Source: Oligoflexia bacterium
Lineage (GTDB): Bacteria; Bdellovibrionota_G; JANQFH01
Direction: 5' to 3'
NCBI GenBank assembly: GCA_028277945.1
Contig: JANQFH010000021.1
Coordinates: 124,001 to 188,000, forward strand
Length of the DNA: 64,000 nt
Under the pieces are notes generated by a model. It was not told where the DNA came from. It made no database searches and was given only the letters and a program-made list of their open reading frames with translations. Shown in pieces: positions 3,926 to 56,903 of the stretch (position 1 is its first letter; each line of letters begins with the position of its first letter). A program made the position numbers and the translations under genes.

Positions 3926-5499
3926 CAGGCCAAGTTTTCGTCGATGCGTTTAAAGAGCGGCTCACCCTTGTGCACTTTGCTCTGTGGTTGCACGCTGTTC
4001 GTATCAGCCCACTGCTCTGCCTCTTCCAGGTAGCCGTGTGAACTGCGATCATCAATGCTCGGCAGTGAGATCTTCTGGCGCAGCTGGTTAGCCATTACTG
4101 GCATAAAGGGGAAGATGAGAATAGAGACGATCCGTAGCGACTCGATAAGATTGTAAAGTACTTGGTCTAAACGGTCTTTATCGTCGGCTGTCTTGGCTAA
4201 CTGCCATGGTTTGGTTTTATCAATGTAGCGATTGACCCTACCGATAAAGTCCCAGGTCTTTTTGAGCGCCTCTTCAAAGCCAAGTGCTTGCATGGCTTGG
4301 GTGTAGTCCTGCGCACACTCTTTGGCTCGCTGTGCTAGCTCGTTGTCTCTCTCTTGACCACCGGATGGTTCAGGTACTAAACCGTCGCGGTACTTCTCTA
4401 CCATGGAGATAGCTCTACTCGTTAGGTTGCCAAGGTCGTTGGCGAGGTCGCTGTTGATGCGCCTGACAAATGCGTTCTTGGAAAAGTCGCCATCAAGACC
4501 AAAGGGGAACTCGCGCAAAAGAAAATAGCGAAAGGCATCGGCCCCATACTTCTTCACCATATCAAAGGGATCGACAAAGTTGTCCTTGGACTTAGACATC
4601 TTTTCACCCTCAACCGTCCACCACCCATGGGCGTAAATGGTCTTTGGCAGTGGCAGGCCAGCGGACATCAAAAAGGTAGGCCAGTAGATGGCGTGGAAAC
4701 GCAAAATATCCTTACCGACAACATGGTAGTTTGCTGGCCACCAGTGGTTAAATTGCTTCTCATCACTGCCGTAACCAATAGCGGTCAGATAGTTGGTGAG
4801 AGCGTCAAACCAGACATAGATTATGTGCTTGCTATCCTGGGGTACGGGGATACCCCAGCTAAAGGAGGTGCGGCTGATGGAGAGATCCCGCAGACCCTGA
4901 CGCACAAAGCTTACGACCTCATTGCGTTTAGAGGTCGGTTGAATAAACTCTGGGTTGTTCTTAATGTGATCCAGTAGTGCCTCTGTATACTTAGACATTT
5001 TGAAGAAGTAGCTCGCCTCTTTGAGGCGTTCGGTAGGGCGCTGGCAGGTTGGGCAATGGCTCGCTTCAAGCAGTTGCGTCTCCGTCCAATAGGCCTCACA
5101 AGGCACACAGTACCAGCCCTCGTACTCACCGAGATAGATGTCGCCAGCAGCAAAGACCTTGTGAAAAAACTGTGTGGCGCCCTTAACGTGTCGCTCTTCG
5201 GTGGTGCGGATAAAGTCGTTGTGCGACATATTCAGCTCCACCCAGAGTTTTTTCAGCCGTTCAACAACACGATCGGCGAGTTGAATCGGCGTTTCGCCCT
5301 CCTGTTTAGCGCTCTTTTCGATCTTTTCGCCATGTTCGTCTGAGCCAGTGAGAAAGAAGACCTCGTTGCCCAAAAGCCGTTGAAACCGCGCAGCCGCATC
5401 GCAGGCCACAGTGGTGTAAGCGTGGCCAATGTGCGGATAGTCGTTGACGTAGTAGATAGGGGTGGTGATGTAAAATCGATCACCCTTGTTTTTGCTCAT
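3925..5499 (-). CDS. metG: Methionyl-tRNA synthetase
   Basis: 524-residue class I synthetase charging tRNA-Met. The HIGH motif is at residues 23-26 (YPHIGHAY), the KMSKS loop at 300-304, and a zinc knuckle of four cysteines at 131, 134, 149 and 152 inside the connective-peptide domain. The C-terminal helical anticodon-binding domain is present (about 360-500), but the extra EMAP-like tRNA-binding domain found in E. coli MetG is absent, as in many shorter bacterial forms. The gene is followed by tatD with a one-base overlap. It is divergent from the downstream tRNA-Arg gene, with about 90 bases between them holding both promoters. Confidence 0.97.
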   Translation of the reverse strand: MSKNKGDRFYITTPIYYVNDYPHIGHAYTTVACDAAARFQRLLGNEVFFLTGSDEHGEKIEKSAKQEGETPIQLADRVVERLKKLWVELNMSHNDFIRTTEERHVKGATQFFHKVFAAGDIYLGEYEGWYCVPCEAYWTETQLLEASHCPTCQRPTERLKEASYFFKMSKYTEALLDHIKNNPEFIQPTSKRNEVVSFVRQGLRDLSISRTSFSWGIPVPQDSKHIIYVWFDALTNYLTAIGYGSDEKQFNHWWPANYHVVGKDILRFHAIYWPTFLMSAGLPLPKTIYAHGWWTVEGEKMSKSKDNFVDPFDMVKKYGADAFRYFLLREFPFGLDGDFSKNAFVRRINSDLANDLGNLTSRAISMVEKYRDGLVPEPSGGQERDNELAQRAKECAQDYTQAMQALGFEEALKKTWDFIGRVNRYIDKTKPWQLAKTADDKDRLDQVLYNLIESLRIVSILIFPFMPVMANQLRQKISLPSIDDRSSHGYLEEAEQWADTNSVQPQSKVHKGEPLFKRIDENLA

Positions 5500-5779: not shown

Positions 5780-6940
5780 CTACTCACGTAACATTTGGAA
5801 AAATTCCTGATATGGCACAACCTTATATCCATTCACGACACGGGAGCTCTTTCCTGCACAAACACATAGGCACTTAGCTTTGGGGATAATTTTTTTAATT
5901 GCCTGAAATCCTGACATAAAATCTAGGGGAACAGGTGTTGTTTTGCTTTTGATTTCAATGGCTAGGATTTCGCCATTCGGTTTTTCAATTATCAGATCGA
6001 CCTCCACGTCGTTTGCTGTGCGCAGAAACGAAAAAGAGAAGTCTTTTCGGAGGTATGAAGAAATTCGGTTTGCTTCATTAATTACCCAGGTTTCGAAATA
6101 GTTGCCGAACTCAAATGATTTGGCTTGAACTGGTAACGATAAACGCTTTTGTGCCGCGCGTAGAACGCCGGTATCGAAAAAGTAGAACTTAGGACTAAGT
6201 TTGTGCCGTTTTCGCTGTGAAAAAGAAAATGGCATGAGGAATGAACCAATCAATGTATCCTCCAGAATTTTATAATATTCTTTCACAGTCACTGAGCTTA
6301 CTCCAACATCGCGTGCGATGTTGGAGTAGTTGATTTGTTCTCCATTGGTTTGAGCTGCGGTAGCAAGAAAACGAATAAAGCCGCCAATATTCCTAGAAAG
6401 CGCTTCTGCCTCTATTTCCTCCTTCAGATAAACTTCCACATACGAGCGTAAATTTTCTTCTTTATGATGAGCGCTATGGCTAGCTATATTTTGAGGGAGC
6501 GTACCAAAGGTTAAAAGTTCGCTGAGTTTTGTTGTTCCAACCTCGTGCAAGGTTAAGGGGAAAAGGTTGTAGGTCCACGCTCGTCCAGCTAAAAGATTTC
6601 CTCGACCCCGCCGCAGTTTTCTGGCACTTGAACCGCTGAGAATGAATTGACGTCGTTCTTTTTGGTCGATTAGAAACTGCACTTCATTCAGGAGGGCTGG
6701 TATCCTCTGAACTTCATCAATGAATATCGTGTTGACTGAGGGGGGAAGTGCGGCAATTTCTTCACGCAGAATGTGGGGCTCAGCTGCCAATTTCGTGAAG
6801 GTTTCACCAAGTAGCAGGTTGTACTCCTGTAAATTTTTTCCACCAAATAGTTTCCGAATCAAAGTGGTTTTGCCAGTTTGACGAGCGCCAAACAGAAAAA
6901 AATGCTGTTTTTTCGGTAGGTTAAGTTCTCTTAAAAGCAT
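5780..6940 (-). CDS. AAA+ ATPase with DUF4143 C-terminal domain
   Basis: 386 residues. N-terminal AAA_14-type ATPase: Walker A GARQTGKTT at 18-26, Walker B TIFIDEVQ at 71-78, and a sensor segment FILSGSSARKL. The C-terminal half has the DUF4143 layout ending in a PD-(D/E)XK-like core, VEVDLIIEKPNGEILAIEIK, in which the D, E and K of a nuclease-type fold are all present. Members of this family are abundant, mobile and often found in accessory regions; their activity is not well established. The gene is the only one between the two tRNA-Arg repeats, and a palindrome lies seven bases before its start. It is probably cargo of a small integrated element. Confidence 0.85.
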   Translation of the reverse strand: MLLRELNLPKKQHFFLFGARQTGKTTLIRKLFGGKNLQEYNLLLGETFTKLAAEPHILREEIAALPPSVNTIFIDEVQRIPALLNEVQFLIDQKERRQFILSGSSARKLRRGRGNLLAGRAWTYNLFPLTLHEVGTTKLSELLTFGTLPQNIASHSAHHKEENLRSYVEVYLKEEIEAEALSRNIGGFIRFLATAAQTNGEQINYSNIARDVGVSSVTVKEYYKILEDTLIGSFLMPFSFSQRKRHKLSPKFYFFDTGVLRAAQKRLSLPVQAKSFEFGNYFETWVINEANRISSYLRKDFSFSFLRTANDVEVDLIIEKPNGEILAIEIKSKTTPVPLDFMSGFQAIKKIIPKAKCLCVCAGKSSRVVNGYKVVPYQEFFQMLRE

Positions 6941-7101: not shown

Positions 7102-7472
7102 TTAAGTCTTTCGTTTACTAAGCGTCTTAGCAGCGACGATAAACTCTTCAATGGTAGCCAGATAGTCTTTATCGGTAACATCAACATAATCATGAACAGC
7201 TAAGTTGCGGTCTTCAACAAAGGCAAGCCACTTTTCAACATCATCAATCAAACCAAGTCTACCTGCGTGCTTAATAATTTCCTTTGGTCCATACGCTTCA
7301 ATGCCAGCCTCTTTAACCAGAGCAAGGAGGAATTTCCAGGCGTATTCTAAGCAGACTTCAAAAGATTTTGAGATACCGTAGAAGTAAAAAGCATCTTTTT
7401 AATCTTGTGCCTGAAAGTCCACGCATGCTCAAGGGAGACGATGCTTTCCAGAAATCTACTACGCTGCCTCAT
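7102..7472 (-). pseudogene. hepT: HepT-type HEPN toxin, frameshifted
   Basis: Starting at the ATG of 7472-7470, which overlaps the MntA stop (ATGA), the frame encodes a HEPN/HI0074-like protein but is broken in the A5 run at 7396-7400, where one base is missing. Restoring it gives about 123 residues ending at TAA 7104-7102, with KDAFYFYGIS after the break, then PKEIIKHAGRLGLIDD and EDRNLAVHDYVDV. The last segment holds the Rx4HxY signature of HepT RNases (R, H and Y in RNLAVHDY), so the catalytic and modified residues are intact. HepT cleaves RNA unless its tyrosine is AMPylated by MntA. The break may be inactivation, a homopolymer sequencing error or slippage on the A-run. Confidence 0.75.
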
Positions 7473-8026
7473 TTTTTATATTTGCTAACCTTCTCCTGCA
7501 GCATTAGCCAATCTTGACGTTTACCCGTCAGAAATGCCCAATTGTGTGCAATAGACTGCAGAAAATCATCATCAGCTCGATTCAAATTCGCTACATCAAC
7601 AAAAATAGGTTGTGACTCTTCAATCTCGCTCTTTTTTCTAAGCAAGCGCCTAAACTCCTTGTGCTCAATACCTTTGGCAGAGAAGACGCCGATGTCTAGG
7701 TCAGCATACTTTGAATGCTTTTGGCTTGCACGCGAACCACACATGACAAACGTCCAGTTAGGAAAACCTGTTGCCAGACTATCAACAATATTTGCCACCA
7801 AAGCGTCCTGCTGAGACCGGCTCTTATGATGGACTAAGACCTTAGACAGCTCGAGCTGAAGAAAGTCGAGCATTTTCTCTAAGTTATTCGAAACAACTCC
7901 CCTGCCAACAAAGTAACCTTGAACGGTATTACGATGTAGGCCGACGACAGCTGCCAGCTGCTGAATGGAGCTAATGCCGCGCGCCTTCATCGCCTCCTCA
8001 ATCTCTTGCCTATCCAAACAATACAT
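7469..8026 (-). CDS. mntA: HTH-MntA antitoxin nucleotidyltransferase
   Basis: 185 residues. Residues 19-40 form a helix-turn-helix (IQQLAAVVGLHRNTVQGYF), followed by a minimal nucleotidyltransferase domain: GSRA at 97-100, D109 and D111 in YADLDIGV, and a third aspartate in IFVDVANL (about 144), so all three metal ligands are present. MntA antitoxins AMPylate the tyrosine of the HepT RNase. Here the antitoxin is fused to a DNA-binding module and precedes the toxin, with a four-base stop/start overlap. An inverted repeat overlaps its promoter, so the fused HTH is a good candidate autorepressor. A second ATG at 7990 with an AGGAGG just before it is an alternative start, which would remove 12 residues but keep the HTH. 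Confidence 0.85.
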   Translation of the reverse strand: MYCLDRQEIEEAMKARGISSIQQLAAVVGLHRNTVQGYFVGRGVVSNNLEKMLDFLQLELSKVLVHHKSRSQQDALVANIVDSLATGFPNWTFVMCGSRASQKHSKYADLDIGVFSAKGIEHKEFRRLLRKKSEIEESQPIFVDVANLNRADDDFLQSIAHNWAFLTGKRQDWLMLQEKVSKYKK

Positions 8027-8032
8027 ATCTAG

Positions 8033-8063
8033 TAACTATAGCATGCATAGTTATAATAGTCAA
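8033..8063 (-). promoter_or_regulatory. Promoter and overlapping operator of mntA-hepT
   Basis: On the minus strand TTGACT (8063-8058) and TATAGT (8040-8035) are separated by exactly 17 bases. The inverted repeat TAACTAT (8033-8039) / ATAGTTA (8047-8053) covers the -10 and the adjacent spacer. Initiation would fall near 8028, giving a nearly leaderless message from 8026 or a 38-base leader for the ATG at 7990. Confidence 0.6.
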
Positions 8064-8160
8064 TGCCTATTTAAAATATGCAAATTAGACCTTGGCTCCA
8101 AAACAGCTGCTTGCAATTCGCTTGTTGCCTCGGTTTCCTAAATTGGGATATTAGTAGCGA

Positions 8161-8742
8161 ATGATGCAGATAGCTTCCTTGATTCTATCGATGCTGTTGA
8201 TGCTCACTCTTGGATGTCATGGTAAAAATCCACGGGTGCTTTTTGAGACCGGCCTTGGCGACATTACCGTTGAAGTCTACGAAAAACAGGCGCCAGGTAC
8301 GGCTGCTAATTTCTTGCGTTATGTAGATGAGAGCCGCTTTGCCGACATGTCATTTTATCGGGTGGTGCGTGTAGACAACCAGACAAATCCAGTCGAGATT
8401 GCGGTGATCCAAGGAGGACTTGGCTTCGACGACCATCCCCAACGCCTTCCAGCCATTGCCCATGAGACCACAGAGGCAACCGGTATCCGACATGAGAATG
8501 GTACCATTTCCATGGCAAGGATGGCGCCAGGCACGGCGTCATCGGAAATCTTTATCTGTGTGGGTGAGCAACCTGAGTTAGACTTTGGCGGCAAGCGCAA
8601 TCCAGATGGCCAGGGGTTTGCCGCCTTTGGCAAAGTCATTCAAGGCATGGACGTGGTCCACAAGATTCATCAGCAGTCTGCGGAAAAGCAGATGCTCAAA
8701 CCAATTGTTAAGATTAATCGGGTTCTAAGGTCTGAGCGTTGA
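8161..8742 (+). CDS. Cyclophilin-type peptidyl-prolyl isomerase lipoprotein
   Basis: 193 residues. An N-terminal hydrophobic segment ends in LTLGC, a lipobox, so the mature enzyme is probably an envelope lipoprotein. The rest is a cyclophilin domain: FETGLGDITVEVYEKQAP, TAANFLRYVDE, DMSFYRVVR, IQGG and GTISMARMAPGTASSEIFI. The F-x-R and Q residues of the active site are visible in SFYRVVR and VIQGG. It catalyses proline cis/trans isomerisation during folding of exported proteins. Two adjacent ATGs (8161 and 8164) are possible starts. It stands alone, facing the VTC gene convergently with an 8-base gap. Confidence 0.88.
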   Translation: MMQIASLILSMLLMLTLGCHGKNPRVLFETGLGDITVEVYEKQAPGTAANFLRYVDESRFADMSFYRVVRVDNQTNPVEIAVIQGGLGFDDHPQRLPAIAHETTEATGIRHENGTISMARMAPGTASSEIFICVGEQPELDFGGKRNPDGQGFAAFGKVIQGMDVVHKIHQQSAEKQMLKPIVKINRVLRSER

Positions 8743-50624: not shown

Positions 50625-52598
50625 TTACTTGAGTTCTTCATCGCAGAGCTGGGTTGGCTCGGATCCTTTGATAAAAGCGACCTCGATAGGATCACTGCAG
50701 TTCGGAGTTGCTAACCTGCCTGAGGAGTGGTCGATGGTTTTGATGGTGACGTTTTCAGGAACTTGATCGGTGGTTGGTTGTGCCAGCAAAGTGCAGGCAG
50801 ATTCAGCAAAGTGGACCCAGATCGGTAGTGCAGCAGTAGTGCCGGTCTCGGCTTTGCCGAGACTGCGGTTATCATCAAAGCCCACCCAGACACCTGTTGT
50901 CAGTCGAGGGCTGAAGCCGACAAAGAGTGCATCGGTATAGTTGTTGGAAGTGCCGGTCTTGCCAGCAACATTGCAAGAGAGCTGCGCCGCCTGGTTAGCA
51001 GTCCCATGGAGCACAACTCCGCGCAACAAGTCGTGCATAATATAGGCGACATCAGGCTGGAGCGCGGCTCTGGTTGCAATCGCAGGCCTCCAGAGTTGCT
51101 GCCCGGAGGCATTCGTGACCGAGAGTACGGTGTGGGGGCTGTTGTAAATGCCGTTATTTGCAAAGACCGAGTAGGCCGCTGTCAGTTCCAGTAGCGAAAT
51201 TGAAGCAGAGCCTATGGCTATAGTTAGGTTGTTTGGAATCGTTGCCGTGATGCCAAGCTGTCGAGCCATCTTTTGAACTTGCGCTATACCAAGTCGAGAA
51301 GCTAGTTGTACTGCAACTGTGTTGAGTGACTTTTCCAATGCCACTCTCATGGTGACAGGGCCGAGATGGCCCCTGCCAAAGTTGGCGGGTTGGTAAGGTT
51401 TACCTTTGTGGCCTGGGTAGGAGATGGGCACATCCTGAAAAATCGTTGACTGGTTGTAACCGGCGGCAAGGGCTGCGGCATAGACGATAGGTTTGAAAGC
51501 CGACCCTGACTGCCGTTTTGCTTGCACAGCCCGATTGAACGGACTGCGACGAAAATCTTCACCACCGACAAGAGCTCTGATAGCTCCCGATTGCGAGTCT
51601 ATGGCGATCAGCGCGGCTTCTGGGCTAGTGCTTACCACTGTAGATCTCGTCGGCAGCGGTTGTGGATGACGCTGGCGGTAGGCGAACAGACCAGAGGCAA
51701 CGGCTCGCTCTGCTGCCTGTTGCAACTCAACGTCGATGGTCGTGGCTACGTTTAGCCGGCCTTTGAGCACCTGATTGGCGCCCAACTGAGCCAGCAGCTG
51801 TTGTAGGATCATCGAGTTGATGTGGTTACGGATCCCTGGCGAGCGACAGGGCTGAACGTCAATCGCTGCGTCGCGGGCCAGCTTGAACTGTGTTGTCGAT
51901 AGCAGACGATTTCGGGCCATAGCCTCTAGTACCTGATTACGCCGTTGTCGGCTTCGTTCTGGATTTATAGATGGGGCATAGATCGATGGCCCCTTGGGAA
52001 TTCCTGCCAATGTGGCTATTTCCGCAGTGGTTAACTCACCTAGAGGTTTACAGAAATAGAAGTGCGATGCCGCGGTCATCCCATAATTACCTTCGCCCAT
52101 ATAAATCTGGTTGAGATAGAGCTCGAGTATCTCGTCTTTGGTGTAGTGTTTTTCGATTTGGAAGGCGATGATGATCTCTTTTAACTTACGGATGTATGAC
52201 TTTTCCGGTGTTAGAAAGAGAACGCGGGCCAGCTGCTGAGTCAGCGTACTACCGCCCTGGGCGCGTCTTTGCTGCATGATATTTTTGAAAAGGGCGCGGA
52301 CAATACCCTTTAGGCTAATACCGTGGTGATGGAAGAAAGAGCTATCTTCAACGGCAATGACCGCTTCAACAAGCTGTGAGGGCATTTTTTTTAGTTCGAC
52401 AGGCAGACGGCGTTCGTGAAAGATTTCGCCGACGAGCTGACCTTGATGATCGATCAGCCGGGTGATGCCTTTAGGTTTGAACTCTTCTAAAGATTCAATT
52501 TGTGGCAGATCTTGTAACAACAGAAAGGCTACAGCACCCAGTACACCGGTGGCTCCGGCGACCACAAAAATAGAGACAAGGATGGGCCACCTTTTCAT
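50625..52598 (-). CDS. Penicillin-binding protein 1A-type bifunctional transglycosylase/transpeptidase
   Basis: 657 residues. One N-terminal transmembrane helix, then the GT51 domain (EDSSFFHHHGISLKGI, GGSTLTQQLARVLF, the catalytic Glu in EDSSF) and a transpeptidase domain with SGSAFKPIVYAAAL (active Ser-x-x-Lys) and KTGTSNNYTDALFVGF (KTG). It polymerises and crosslinks peptidoglycan in the periplasm. Short for a PBP1A (usually over 750), it has no extra C-terminal domain. It follows ssb with a 25-base gap, last in a seven-gene run led by the CD-NTase-like protein. Confidence 0.93.
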   Translation of the reverse strand: MKRWPILVSIFVVAGATGVLGAVAFLLLQDLPQIESLEEFKPKGITRLIDHQGQLVGEIFHERRLPVELKKMPSQLVEAVIAVEDSSFFHHHGISLKGIVRALFKNIMQQRRAQGGSTLTQQLARVLFLTPEKSYIRKLKEIIIAFQIEKHYTKDEILELYLNQIYMGEGNYGMTAASHFYFCKPLGELTTAEIATLAGIPKGPSIYAPSINPERSRQRRNQVLEAMARNRLLSTTQFKLARDAAIDVQPCRSPGIRNHINSMILQQLLAQLGANQVLKGRLNVATTIDVELQQAAERAVASGLFAYRQRHPQPLPTRSTVVSTSPEAALIAIDSQSGAIRALVGGEDFRRSPFNRAVQAKRQSGSAFKPIVYAAALAAGYNQSTIFQDVPISYPGHKGKPYQPANFGRGHLGPVTMRVALEKSLNTVAVQLASRLGIAQVQKMARQLGITATIPNNLTIAIGSASISLLELTAAYSVFANNGIYNSPHTVLSVTNASGQQLWRPAIATRAALQPDVAYIMHDLLRGVVLHGTANQAAQLSCNVAGKTGTSNNYTDALFVGFSPRLTTGVWVGFDDNRSLGKAETGTTAALPIWVHFAESACTLLAQPTTDQVPENVTIKTIDHSSGRLATPNCSDPIEVAFIKGSEPTQLCDEELK

Positions 52599-52623
52599 TT
52601 GGCCGGGTAGTTAGGAGGCGTGG

Positions 52624-53067
52624 TTAAAAAGGCACATCCTCGTCAGCACTGTAATTTTCGGCCTGCCCTTGTGTGTTATCGGCGCTTAGGGTTCCTGGCT
52701 GCGGCAGCTCTTCGTGCTCTTGTCCTGTGCTAGTACCGCGTCCACCCAAGAATACCACGTTTGCAGCGGTAATCTCCGTTGTATAGCGCTTTTCACCCTC
52801 TTTGGTCTCCCAGCTATTGGTACGCAGCTTACCCTCAACAAAGACCTGGCGGCCTTTACCAAGGTATTCACCACAGATCTCACCAAGTTTTCCCCAAGCG
52901 ACAATACGGTGCCACTCAGTACGCTCCTCTTTATTACCATCTTTACCCGTCCAGGTTTCATTGGTTGCCATACGGAAGTGTGCTACCGGTGTACCGCTAC
53001 CTGTATAACGCACTTCTGGATCTGCTCCCAACCTTCCTACTAAGATCACTTTATTCACACTGTTCAT
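52624..53067 (-). CDS. ssb: Single-stranded DNA-binding protein
   Basis: 147 residues. OB-fold: [53 protein letters not shown] and [17 protein letters not shown], then a low-complexity tail ending in the acidic DEDVPF tip that docks repair and replication proteins. Replication and repair protein. It lies between a pilin-like gene and PBP1A. Confidence 0.96.
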
Positions 53068-53113
53068 TGAGTTGCCCTCAGTCTAAAAAATTCATCTTCA
53101 GCTGAAGGAGTTA

Positions 53114-53842
53114 TCATGGCGTTTGCGTCGGTGTCAAGACAGGCAGATTGCGCAGTAGCACCGACACCTTGGTGCTCGCTTTGATGGGTTTCACAGCAGC
53201 CCGTTCTTCGAGTTCTAAGAAGATGTCTAGCCTGTGGATATCTTTTAAAGTTTTTGGATCATTATACAAACGGTCTGTCGCTATGGGCTCACCATTAGCG
53301 TCAAAGTAGGTAAACAGCAGTCGTCGTACGCCCTTGGTGAGAATCTGCCAACGGCCCTGTTGTTCAGGTGCTGCAACATACTGCTGCAGCTGGCCATTAT
53401 ACAGGCGAAAACTGCTTATCTCTCTGCCATCGGTACGGCCGGCAACAGGGCTCAGCTGCCTGTCCAGGGTTGATGCCGTGAGGATCAAGCCATCTGGGCT
53501 TCCCGTTGCCGAGATCAAATCAGAGCTCAGGACAATTCGGTCGGGCCAGGCAGCGACGATGCCAATCCGTCGCGTTAAGTCGTTTTCCGTATCATAGGGG
53601 ATGGCCAGTGGGTTGTAGCCGCTGTTACGCAGCTCTTTTTCAACGCGGCCAAGGGTGCGTTTTACGTTTGCTAACAGCTTGGCTTCACGAGTGGTGCGGT
53701 GGAGATTTTGCCAATAGAGACGCACAGTTTGATAAATGGCCGCCATGACCACGGCTGCAAGAAGGGTGGCAATCAAGAGTTCGACTAGCGAGTAGCCCTT
53801 GGCATCTCGTTCGTTTTCTTTCTGTTTAAAAAGTGAGTCCAT
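53114..53842 (-). CDS. Type IV pilin-like protein (PilW-like)
   Basis: 242 residues from the ATG at 53842, which overlaps the queE stop by one base. The prepilin peptidase site is clear: AKGYSLVELLIATLLAAVV, with G before the cut, Y/S after it, and Glu at position 5. A short hydrophobic helix and a 190-residue globular domain follow (LGRVEKELRNSGYNPLA), of the PilW/minor pilin size. It is probably a minor pilin or pseudopilin in a type II/IV system. It lies in a metabolic run (QueE, FolB) rather than with other pilin genes. Confidence 0.8.
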   Translation of the reverse strand: MDSLFKQKENERDAKGYSLVELLIATLLAAVVMAAIYQTVRLYWQNLHRTTREAKLLANVKRTLGRVEKELRNSGYNPLAIPYDTENDLTRRIGIVAAWPDRIVLSSDLISATGSPDGLILTASTLDRQLSPVAGRTDGREISSFRLYNGQLQQYVAAPEQQGRWQILTKGVRRLLFTYFDANGEPIATDRLYNDPKTLKDIHRLDIFLELEERAAVKPIKASTKVSVLLRNLPVLTPTQTP

Positions 53843-54567
53843 CAAACTCCCCTACGGTTGCCCCAGAGTTCGATATGAGTTCGCGGACAAAAATTAAAGC
53901 GATTTTGTTTACACAGCTCGACTACCCATCTTCCTCTTTTCTTGAGGTCCTCGTGTTCAATACCCTGGGGCATGAGATAAATTTTTTCATTTGGGATATC
54001 GAAACTATCTCTGAATGCAAAAATTTCTTGCAGATCCTCTGGCACGTGGATGACAAATTTGATTTGATAATCATGGTGCTTTATAAAGCTTTTGATGGCC
54101 TTAGGCGCCAGTCTTTTCGCGTTCCACTCTCTTGGGTTGCAGCTAGACGATAGTTTGGGGCTTATGGAGATAAACTGCGCTCTGGTTTTACGAAAAATGG
54201 TTCCATTCGTTTCTACGGTCACATAAGAACCGAGATCTACCAGAGAGTCTATCAGGTTGGTGACAGCTTCCTGAACAAACGGTTCACCGCCGGTAATGAC
54301 AACATGCTGGCAGGAATGGTTGCTAACTTGTACAACAACATCTCTAGTTGCTCTACGGTTTTCTTCTGGTTCAAAGCTGCTGTAGGGAGTGTCACATCTT
54401 GTCGTGCTACCATCAGAATTGCGCCATTCACAGCGTAGGTTACAGCCGCTAAGTCGGACAAAGACAGCCGGCCGTCCGTTATAAGTTCCTTCGCCTTGCA
54501 CGGTATAAAAGACACCCCTGTCGCCGTCTAAGGTAAGGTTAATACTAGAATTGTTTTCCACCACCAT
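53842..54567 (-). CDS. queE: 7-carboxy-7-deazaguanine synthase QueE, variant radical-SAM spacing
   Basis: 241 residues. Radical-SAM enzyme making the 7-deazaguanine base for queuosine. Opening motif VFYTVQGEGTYNGRPAVFVRLSGCN is typical (E/G and substrate contacts), but the cluster cysteines are CNLRCEWRNSDGSTTRC, a CX3C followed by an 11-residue gap to the third Cys, unlike the usual CX3CX2C. CDTPYSSF then follows, the conserved DTP of QueE. Other parts (GGEPFVQE, VTVETNGT) fit. It lies between folB and the pilin-like gene. The catalytic set appears complete with altered spacing. Confidence 0.88.
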   Translation of the reverse strand: MVVENNSSINLTLDGDRGVFYTVQGEGTYNGRPAVFVRLSGCNLRCEWRNSDGSTTRCDTPYSSFEPEENRRATRDVVVQVSNHSCQHVVITGGEPFVQEAVTNLIDSLVDLGSYVTVETNGTIFRKTRAQFISISPKLSSSCNPREWNAKRLAPKAIKSFIKHHDYQIKFVIHVPEDLQEIFAFRDSFDIPNEKIYLMPQGIEHEDLKKRGRWVVELCKQNRFNFCPRTHIELWGNRRGV

Positions 54568-54585
54568 CGCTTGAGAGTATGATAA

Positions 54586-54960
54586 TCACTTTTGGCATCG
54601 TTCGATTTCAACGCCGACACTACGCGCAAAACGTAATGCCCGCGGCTTATCTACAGAAATCCGCACCCTTGTGACTTTCTCATGGCGCAGACATACACCA
54701 GCAATCGCCTCAGCAATATGCTCTATTAAGTTGTGCGAAGATTTCTCAACCGTTGCGACAATCTCTCGTTTCAGTTCTGAATAGTCAATGGTGTCACGTA
54801 TATCGTCGCTCTTTGCCGCCGCAGCTAGATCTGTAAAGAGCGTCGTATTAACGATGATATCTTGCTTTTTTAGGCGTTCATCTTTTTTGACACCAACGAT
54901 GCAACGTAGATGCAAATTACGTATGTAAATTTTGTCGGACACTGCATCGTTTCTATCCAT
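54586..54960 (-). CDS. folB: Dihydroneopterin aldolase
   Basis: 124 residues. IRNLHLRCIVGVKKDER, TIDYSELKREI, HNLIEHIAEAIAG and ISVDKPRALRFARSVGVEIER carry the FolB substrate Glu and Lys. It converts dihydroneopterin to 6-hydroxymethyl-dihydropterin and glycolaldehyde in folate synthesis. Its start overlaps the SDR gene by eight bases. This pairing with an SDR suggests a pterin reductase partner. Confidence 0.93.
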   Translation of the reverse strand: MDRNDAVSDKIYIRNLHLRCIVGVKKDERLKKQDIIVNTTLFTDLAAAAKSDDIRDTIDYSELKREIVATVEKSSHNLIEHIAEAIAGVCLRHEKVTRVRISVDKPRALRFARSVGVEIERCQK

Positions 54961-55696
54961 ACATGGCTCCCTTCAAGTGTCGTCCCCCATCAACAAAGAT
55001 CACCTCTCCGGTGATAAAGCGGCTTTCTAATAAAAAGAGCACCGCAGCCGCTACATCGTCTTCAGTGCCGTGGCGTTTTAAGGGAAGTTCAATAGCGCGA
55101 CTCTCTGTATCGGCAGACTCTGTGCCACTGGCCGAGCAAATGAGTCCAGGTGCAACGGCGTTAACCCGAATCTTCGGGGCGAACTCTACAGCCATCATCC
55201 GTGTGATGGTAAAAAGCATACGTTTGCTGAGGTAGTAGGCTGCATGGTCTGTATCGTAAGTAAGCATGCGACTGTCTAAAAGATTGACGATGTTACCCTC
55301 AGAGTTTTGTTTTGCAAAAATGCGAGAGAGAAGCAATGGTGCGGCTGCATTGAGTTGAACGTTTTGCCATAGGTGTTGCATTGAAAAGTCAGTAAGGCGG
55401 CTCTCAACGAAGCTTGAGGCGTTGTTTATAAGGATATCGATGCGTTTGACAAGTTGTGTCGCTTTGGCAAAGAAAGGCTCCACTTGGTCTAGATCTTGTA
55501 GATCCGCTTGGAGCGACCAAGATGGGGTGCCTTGCTGTTGCAACTTGTTGATAAGCTTGGTTGTTCGTTCGCCCGAAGAGTGAAAGTGAGCAATGATATG
55601 AGCACCCTGTGCCGCCAAGGCAAGCGCAATGGCGTGGCCAATGTGACTGCCAGCTCCGGTAATCAAGGCCGTCTTGCCCTCTAGATCGTGTTTCAT
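54953..55696 (-). CDS. Short-chain dehydrogenase, possible pteridine/dihydrofolate reductase
   Basis: 247 residues. SDR Rossmann TGAGSHIGHAIALAL, catalytic YYLSK (Tyr-x-x-x-Lys) and the NAG-type strand (INNASSF). The eight-base overlap with folB supports a FolM-like role (dihydromonapterin/dihydrofolate reduction), but sequence alone does not prove it. Soluble, cytoplasmic. It lies 25 bases after the CD-NTase-like gene, same strand. Confidence 0.8.
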   Translation of the reverse strand: MKHDLEGKTALITGAGSHIGHAIALALAAQGAHIIAHFHSSGERTTKLINKLQQQGTPSWSLQADLQDLDQVEPFFAKATQLVKRIDILINNASSFVESRLTDFSMQHLWQNVQLNAAAPLLLSRIFAKQNSEGNIVNLLDSRMLTYDTDHAAYYLSKRMLFTITRMMAVEFAPKIRVNAVAPGLICSASGTESADTESRAIELPLKRHGTEDDVAAAVLFLLESRFITGEVIFVDGGRHLKGAMYG

Positions 55697-55721
55697 GCAG
55701 TCAGTCGGTCTGCTAATAGCG

Positions 55722-56699
55722 CTATGCCGTTTTTGGAAACGGTTTTCCGAAGAGGTCTGCCATGCTCCTGATCGCTAGCCTGTGGTGTCCTCTCTTTGCA
55801 TCGAAAAAGGCTTGTTTTATGCGAGCCTGAGAGGTTTGAATCTTTGTCCGCGACGGCTCGTCAAAATAAACCGTCAACACTTCTCCAACGTTTGCAGGGG
55901 AGTTAATCTCTCTACCATCAAACTCAAGCAGCTTATCAAAGAACCAAGGTATTTCAAATTCAAAACCTAAATAACCAGACGGTGCAGAGTGGAAAGCAAT
56001 GCTTTGCAAAGCAAATGATGAAAGCAGCTGTCCCTGATGTCGATTCCAACACTTCAGAAACTTTACCAGGGGGTTGAAGAGTCTCTCTCGACACGCCTTG
56101 TTGGCTTTGGCCAGCGCATGGACGTCGGCGAGTGGATCCATGACCTGCCAATTTGGCGTTAATAGAGAGGTCGATGGTGTGAGGAATCCGCCACCTTTAC
56201 GGCGCAATGCCGGCATCACCGACATCTTCATATCTTTCCAGCGGACACTGACAATAGGGCGGTCGATGCGGATAGTCGCCTCGGGTAATTTCTGTAGACC
56301 GAGAAAGAGATCCTGCAATAACTTGGTTCCACCATCTTTGGGTTTCCAAAAACGTGTTAAGTTCCAGGATGTGTTGTCAAGAATCAGGAGCAGGTCTACA
56401 TCTAACACCTTATTAACAGGATCAAGGGGCTCGATCTGAAGATCTGTCGCATAGGATCCAATCAGTGCGGATCTCTCTAGGTTCAATAACGCTCGTGGGC
56501 CCTGTGCATGATGTTCGATGGCCTCCTGACGTTTTGCAACAAGCGTCGGTTTACGGTCGCTGACTTCTAAGGCGCGCAAAAAATCTAGAATCGCCTCATT
56601 TAGAGTCTTAGGTCGTTGTGTCTCTGGCAAACCGCGGAGAACGTTCTGCACCGGAGTTGCCGTGGCTGCTTCATTCATACCACCTGTTGGATACTTCAT
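55722..56699 (-). CDS. CD-NTase-like (SMODS) nucleotidyltransferase with substituted third carboxylate
   Basis: 325 residues. It fits the SMODS/CD-NTase layout: GSY at 81-83, DVDLLLIL (D100, D102), then VSVRWKDMKMSVMPALRR, where the normally acidic third position (as in VDVVPA) is Ser160, and a helical C-terminus (LVKFLKCWNRHQGQLLSSF, AIRSMADLFGKPFP). CBASS synthases of this fold make cyclic nucleotides; the missing carboxylate puts activity in doubt. No CBASS effector is adjacent. It leads the seven-gene minus-strand run ending in PBP1A, and is divergent from the Hpt-REC genes. The ATG at 56699 is used; an ATG at 56678 would trim seven residues. Confidence 0.7.
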   Translation of the reverse strand: MKYPTGGMNEAATATPVQNVLRGLPETQRPKTLNEAILDFLRALEVSDRKPTLVAKRQEAIEHHAQGPRALLNLERSALIGSYATDLQIEPLDPVNKVLDVDLLLILDNTSWNLTRFWKPKDGGTKLLQDLFLGLQKLPEATIRIDRPIVSVRWKDMKMSVMPALRRKGGGFLTPSTSLLTPNWQVMDPLADVHALAKANKACRERLFNPLVKFLKCWNRHQGQLLSSFALQSIAFHSAPSGYLGFEFEIPWFFDKLLEFDGREINSPANVGEVLTVYFDEPSRTKIQTSQARIKQAFFDAKRGHHRLAIRSMADLFGKPFPKTA

Positions 56700-56903
56700 T
56701 TACTACCCAAAAGGCAAGTGCCGCCAAAAATTTAATTATTTTAACTATTTGTGTAAAACTCAAAAACTCCGTGGAAACGAGTCTTTATTGATACAGTCAT
56801 GGAAGCCATACCGTATTAGAAGGAACAACCCTATGTTAGCCAGCTTTACTTGATCACTGGCGTACGGTATTTTTAAGACTTAAGCTGAGATTTTCAAAAA
56901 ATC

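Follow-up and report, generated by a model that had tools for sequence, protein, structure and literature searches.

A CD-NTase-like gene with a degenerate active-site pocket at the head of a housekeeping gene run in an Oligoflexia bacterium

Background

Type IV CBASS combines deazaguanine-type genes with a CD-NTase, and ADP fills the nucleotide role in the mitochondrial fission receptor MiD51. Non-catalytic relatives of cGAS are already known in animals. Human MAB21L1, one such relative, carries Gln169 where cGAS has its third Asp, and no nucleotidyltransferase activity was detected (PMC4897736); MiD51, as cited in the same paper, has the nucleotidyltransferase fold and binds a nucleotide where the active site used to be, but is not catalytic (PMC4897736). 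Among bacterial enzymes, the state of Vibrio cholerae DncV depends on folates, which inhibit it (PMC10653837), and its folate-pocket residues are R108, W110, Q116 and Y137 (PMC7288161). In Bacillus cereus CdnD (BcCdnD), D73, D75 and D123 are ligands of the catalytic metals, and the counterparts of S82, D102, K216 and F229 of the protein described below hold Mg-ATP in the donor site (PMC13424991, also the source of the roles given here to the lid residues). The literature searched yielded no description of a lone bacterial CD-NTase that has lost its active site and heads a core metabolic run, and nothing apt on orphan or inactive bacterial CD-NTases.

The gene considered here lies in a window of 64,000 nucleotides, the whole stretch of DNA that was analysed (positions 124,001 to 188,000 of contig JANQFH010000021.1). 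An earlier note, made from the sequence alone, had described it as a CD-NTase-like gene with Ser in the third metal position, heading a housekeeping run (Table 1).

Table 1. Features of the CD-NTase-like gene and the adjoining run, with positions in the window.
Feature	Positions	Strand	Evidence
CD-NTase-like (SMODS) gene, degenerate pocket, 325 aa	55722..56699	-	Pfam, PADLOC, AlphaFold, Foldseek
GSYATDL, residues 81-87 (family GSYxRxT)	56439..56459	-	GS kept; Arg replaced by T85, Thr by L87
DVD, residues 100-102, first two metal Asp, kept	56394..56402	-	Alignments
Ser160 codon, third metal-carboxylate position	56220..56222	-	Alignment of homologues; equals D123 of BcCdnD
Lid segment, residues 187-192: Lid1 Thr = M187, Lid2 His = D192	56124..56141	-	Alignment
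Residues 213-232: K213, K216, F229 kept; invariant Glu = Q232	56004..56063	-	Alignment
SDR, pteridine reductase-like (FolM-like)	54953..55696	-	NCBIfam
folB, sole genome copy	54586..54960	-	Pfam FolB 8.9e-32; one match
queE-like radical SAM gene, sole copy found	53842..54567	-	NCBIfam QueE models, below cut-offs
N-methylated pilin/pseudopilin gene	53114..53845	-	Pfam N_methyl
ssb	52624..53067	-	Pfam SSB 2.3e-38
PBP1A	50625..52598	-	ORF; name from the earlier note, sequence consistent
Divergent AT-rich intergenic stretch, 36% GC, presumed promoter region	56700..56903	.	Base composition

Results and discussion

Family, fold and residence in the genome

The open reading frame is intact; given the base composition of the window, a frame of 325 codons would stay open by chance with a probability of about 6e-8. 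Its product matches the Pfam SMODS profile (40.4 bits, E 4.4e-10, cut-off 26.5) and the PADLOC Cyclase model PDLC00823 (109.5 bits), and scores 82.2 bits against the curated cyclase model NF041117 (CBASS_cyclase_b), well short of the cut-off of 200. The nearest solved sequences are those of P. aeruginosa CdnD, and CdnD structures are also the top PDB matches found by Foldseek (best E 5e-17, probability 1.00, TM 0.71-0.78) to an AlphaFold model built from 39 sequences (mean pLDDT 83.4). There is no question about the CD-NTase fold: profile, overall fold, GS motif and DxD all place the protein in the SMODS/CD-NTase family, in agreement with what had been read from GSY (residues 81-83) and DVD.

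The GC3 of the gene (0.489) is like that of its neighbours, whereas that of a second CD-NTase gene of the genome, on contig 47, is 0.333. A recent arrival was rejected on the strength of codon use and GC. As far as one genome can tell, the open frame and native GC3 speak for what would be long residence and continued use of the gene.

The third metal position

Homologues were gathered into a set of 59 that comprises 48 genome loci and two viral loci from alignment-based scans together with plasmid and whole-genome matches. In the column of Ser160 they have D in 54, E in three, Y in one and a gap in one, so that 57 of the 58 readable homologues have an acid there; the surrounding motif is MSVMP here versus VDVVP or IELVP in the family. 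More distant CD-NTases in 385 other genomes also keep an acid wherever the match spans the third-metal region. A family profile alignment to the solved structure equates Ser160 with D123 of BcCdnD, and separate alignments concur with it, which rules out misalignment: the residue is on the right strand, and the serine had been correctly assigned. Thus the third carboxylate, which an active CD-NTase requires, is absent.

The rest of the pocket

Five more near-invariant pocket residues, beyond the one in the earlier note, have been lost. According to the alignment of 59 homologues, the donor Arg is replaced by T85; L87 stands in place of a Thr that does not vary among the 57 homologues readable at that column, and Q232 in place of the Glu of SFHLE (58/58); both lid residues differ as well. 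The protein therefore lacks, besides the third carboxylate, the donor Arg, conserved Thr, lid Thr and His, and conserved Glu of an active CD-NTase; S82, D100, D102, K213, K216 and the stacking Phe F229 are kept, and with them the core of the donor site. The lid pair taken alone proves little, because these residues are altered too in other diverged homologues, including the cyclase of contig 47.

The earlier note had allowed for a nucleotidyltransferase with other ligands. Such an enzyme would work with two carboxylates in a remodelled pocket and use another acceptor, a protein or small molecule; the retention of GS and DxD is in its favour, as are the lid changes in other diverged cyclases, and the authors of the MAB21L1 study leave open whether activity is possible with a non-acid at the third site (PMC4897736). 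However, changing any one of the three metal ligands of cGAS to Ala abolishes activity (PMC4897736), and the protein described here has also lost the donor Arg and the invariant Thr and Glu. Since several catalytic residues have been lost and not one, this is the less likely of the two proposals of the note, and we consider it improbable.

Pocket and fold positions compared

The losses were compared with those in six homologues that have diverged about as far from the family (mean identity 25-30%). Within a pocket set that was chosen after the losses had been seen, from published roles and conservation, 6 of 12 residues are kept here versus 67 of 72 in the six homologues (Fisher p 7.4e-4). Of 45 near-invariant positions outside this set, 35 are kept here, and the six homologues keep 200 of 270 (p 0.71). 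Because retention differs in the first set but not in the second, the pocket is lost and the fold kept: judged by these positions, the fold is constrained as in relatives with an intact pocket, and the pocket is not.

The main rival to a retained function is that the gene is a relic in slow decay: a cyclase left over from a CBASS operon that lost its effector, with a pocket that erodes because it is no longer needed. Such a gene might persist either because decay began not long ago or because it supplies the promoter of the run. The absence of an effector nearby would fit, as would the restriction of the gene to one genome, with four other genomes of the phylum lacking it, and broken or point-inactivated copies of the family do occur elsewhere (loci L074, L091 and L109, below). 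In the tree the gene stands alone on a very long branch (4.55 changes per site), so long that its exact placement is unsure, and this also suits a relic. Against it, the frame is open and structural positions are conserved as in homologues with an intact pocket; general decay would hit both sets of positions alike. Decay is a serious possibility, to which we give clearly less than even weight.

The downstream run

The CD-NTase-like gene heads a run of SDR, folB, queE, pilin, ssb and PBP1A genes, with spacings in that order of 25, -8, 18, -4, 46 and 25 bases. These are ordinary housekeeping genes of folate, queuosine, pilus, DNA-binding and cell-wall functions, and the PBP1A reading frame has no match to a defence family. 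To judge from the gaps, the CD-NTase-like gene is probably co-expressed with the folate and queuosine genes behind it; scans for promoters and terminators gave matches no better than chance.

QueE belongs to the ordinary queuosine path, because it is single-copy and the other genes of the path are elsewhere (QueC on contig 45; TGT on contig 68, about 91 kb away), and on the same grounds a link with type IV CBASS through QueE was ruled out. The QueE-like protein has a Cys pattern of C-x3-C-x11-C (CNLRCEWRNSDGSTTRCDT), where other QueE proteins of the phylum have C-x3-C-x2-C; it is also unlike the known C-x14-C-x2-C form.

The SDR scores 211 bits with NCBIfam PRK09134 and 192 bits with PRK09135 (pteridine reductase), both below cut-off. 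It may be the main pterin or folate reductase, because FolA was not found in the genome and ThyX is present. The ThyX gene (L117/L118, G000:C85:111073-112464) encodes two tandem Thy1 domains in one open frame of 520 amino acids.

These genes invite a special case of the pseudoenzyme proposed below, a folate or pterin sensor whose ligand would come from the SDR/FolB branch. In its favour, the run behind the gene includes FolB and an SDR that resembles pteridine reductases, the latter possibly the main reductase in the absence of FolA, and a CD-NTase, DncV, is known to bind folates and be inhibited by them (PMC10653837). However, the counterparts of DncV R108, W110, Q116 and Y137, as located by motif counting only, are R76, A78, A84 and I106, so that Arg alone is matched (1/4); a review describes the folate pocket as not conserved across SMODS proteins (PMC7288161), and the gene order is conserved in no homologue locus. 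With the DncV pocket not kept by this count, the folate link comes down to gene order, and a folate sensor is very unlikely.

CBASS and the second CD-NTase

Neither the run nor the ten flanking proteins scanned yielded a CBASS effector, as the earlier note had said of the immediate neighbours; a search for S_4TM genes, positive in a control genome, found none in this one. Thus the effector that CBASS requires beside its cyclase is missing, as are the deazaguanine-type genes (QueC-, TGT-like) that would adjoin the cyclase in type IV. The proposal of a CD-NTase-derived protein outside CBASS holds: the protein has the SMODS fold and lacks the marks both of an active cyclase and of a CBASS locus.

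The second CD-NTase (G000:C47:1433-2326), which the earlier note did not include, carries a Glu in the third position and keeps R-x-T and the invariant Glu. It adjoins an open reading frame that by eye reads like a SLATT-type membrane effector, with no Pfam match, and an integrase is nearby; from its gene content this locus is likely a CBASS island. The same stretch (G000:C47, L055 897-6291) also holds an MqsA/Panacea-type antitoxin-like gene, and the integrase is split. The two CD-NTases did not arise together, since they are distant (about 23% identity), on different contigs and of different base composition. Their presence in one genome raises the idea that the 325-aa protein is a dominant-negative partner or decoy for the other, which has an acidic third site and a SLATT-like neighbour; the low identity, separate contigs and unlike base composition speak against this, as does the want of a Pfam match for that neighbour, and we regard it as most improbable.

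Homologues and their loci

Single-protein scans of genome and viral contig collections returned zero relatives, and the best homologues from alignment-based scans of these collections reach about 31% identity at most. Neither the 385 related genomes nor the scanned genome and viral collections yielded an orthologue; the gene is in one genome only. An S_4TM effector adjoins the homologue in 16 loci, and at one further homologue locus that was tested the neighbour passes the SLATT_4 cut-off. The earlier note had set against its own reading orthologues that keep the third Asp beside CBASS effectors, or a residue that maps to another loop. Homologues do keep the acid, many of them beside S_4TM or SLATT genes, but these are distant homologues and not orthologues, so that they mark the gene as an exception and do not refute the reading; nor does the residue fall elsewhere. 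The suggested co-occurrence with folB, queE and ssb is conserved nowhere tested: neither FolB nor QueE was found in the homologue loci, the sole SDR lies about 5 kb from its homologue (L074), and the phylum's four other genomes, too distant to inform, showed no synteny for QueE, SSB or FolB.

Several of these loci are of interest in themselves. Two rhizobial homologues (L074 5941-6852 and L091 5944-6851) are interrupted, the frame being split in two or broken by an internal stop, which shows that the cyclase family does include broken copies. On a viral contig (L109, IMGVR_UViG_2551306090_000015, about 4174-4191), a CBASS cyclase that adjoins an S_4TM effector has Tyr in the third metal position (GTCTACGTA); a Pelagibacterium locus 90.5% identical to it (L079) has Asp there (GTCGACGTA), a single-base difference. 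A Bacteriovoracaceae genome (L096) has tandem CD-NTase-like genes (5827-6762 and 7355-8659). Adjoining a plasmid CBASS, a gene for a 578-aa hypothetical protein with a C-terminal CD-NTase-like region (L004 8101-9834, minus strand) faces the cyclase and S_4TM genes in convergent orientation.

A putative CD-NTase pseudoenzyme

The explanation that we favour, with a probability of about 0.5, is that the gene encodes a CD-NTase pseudoenzyme: a descendant of a CdnD-like CBASS cyclase, without an effector, non-catalytic and kept for another job. By this account, which is built on sequence comparison, the ancestral cyclase would have lost its effector; the present protein would be unable to join two nucleotides, might still bind one, and would act by contact with a protein, a non-catalytic job for which the gene would have been retained. 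The best candidate role is that of a nucleotide-binding, non-catalytic regulator, and the sensor or regulator proposed in the earlier note is possible. The more specific proposal that a formerly antiviral cyclase was domesticated as a non-catalytic, ligand-binding regulator of the folate and queuosine run, a bacterial counterpart of MAB21L1 and MiD51, is speculative and rather unlikely as a whole. If the protein is functional, it would indicate that antiviral cyclases can become housekeeping regulators inside bacteria; even as a relic, it cautions annotators that a match to SMODS does not imply CBASS.

Comparison with known systems

The best sequence and fold matches of the 325-aa protein are the CdnD-like CBASS cyclases with S_4TM or SLATT effectors (PDLC00823; NF041117), with which it has in common the fold, length, GSY, DxD and a C-terminal FP end. 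These cyclases differ from it in retaining the third acid, R-x-T and Glu, and they often adjoin a membrane effector. Type IV CBASS resembles the locus in that a 7-deazaguanine gene lies near a CD-NTase, but QueE here is a sole copy, with QueC and TGT elsewhere. DncV is a folate-dependent CD-NTase, and the gene described here adjoins folate genes; DncV, however, is active and part of CBASS, and by motif counting its folate-pocket residues are not kept here. MiD51, an animal membrane receptor, is likened to the protein by description. MAB21L1, an animal developmental protein comparable through the shared fold only, nevertheless has the same arrangement of a non-acid at the third-Asp site with the first acids kept (PMC4897736).
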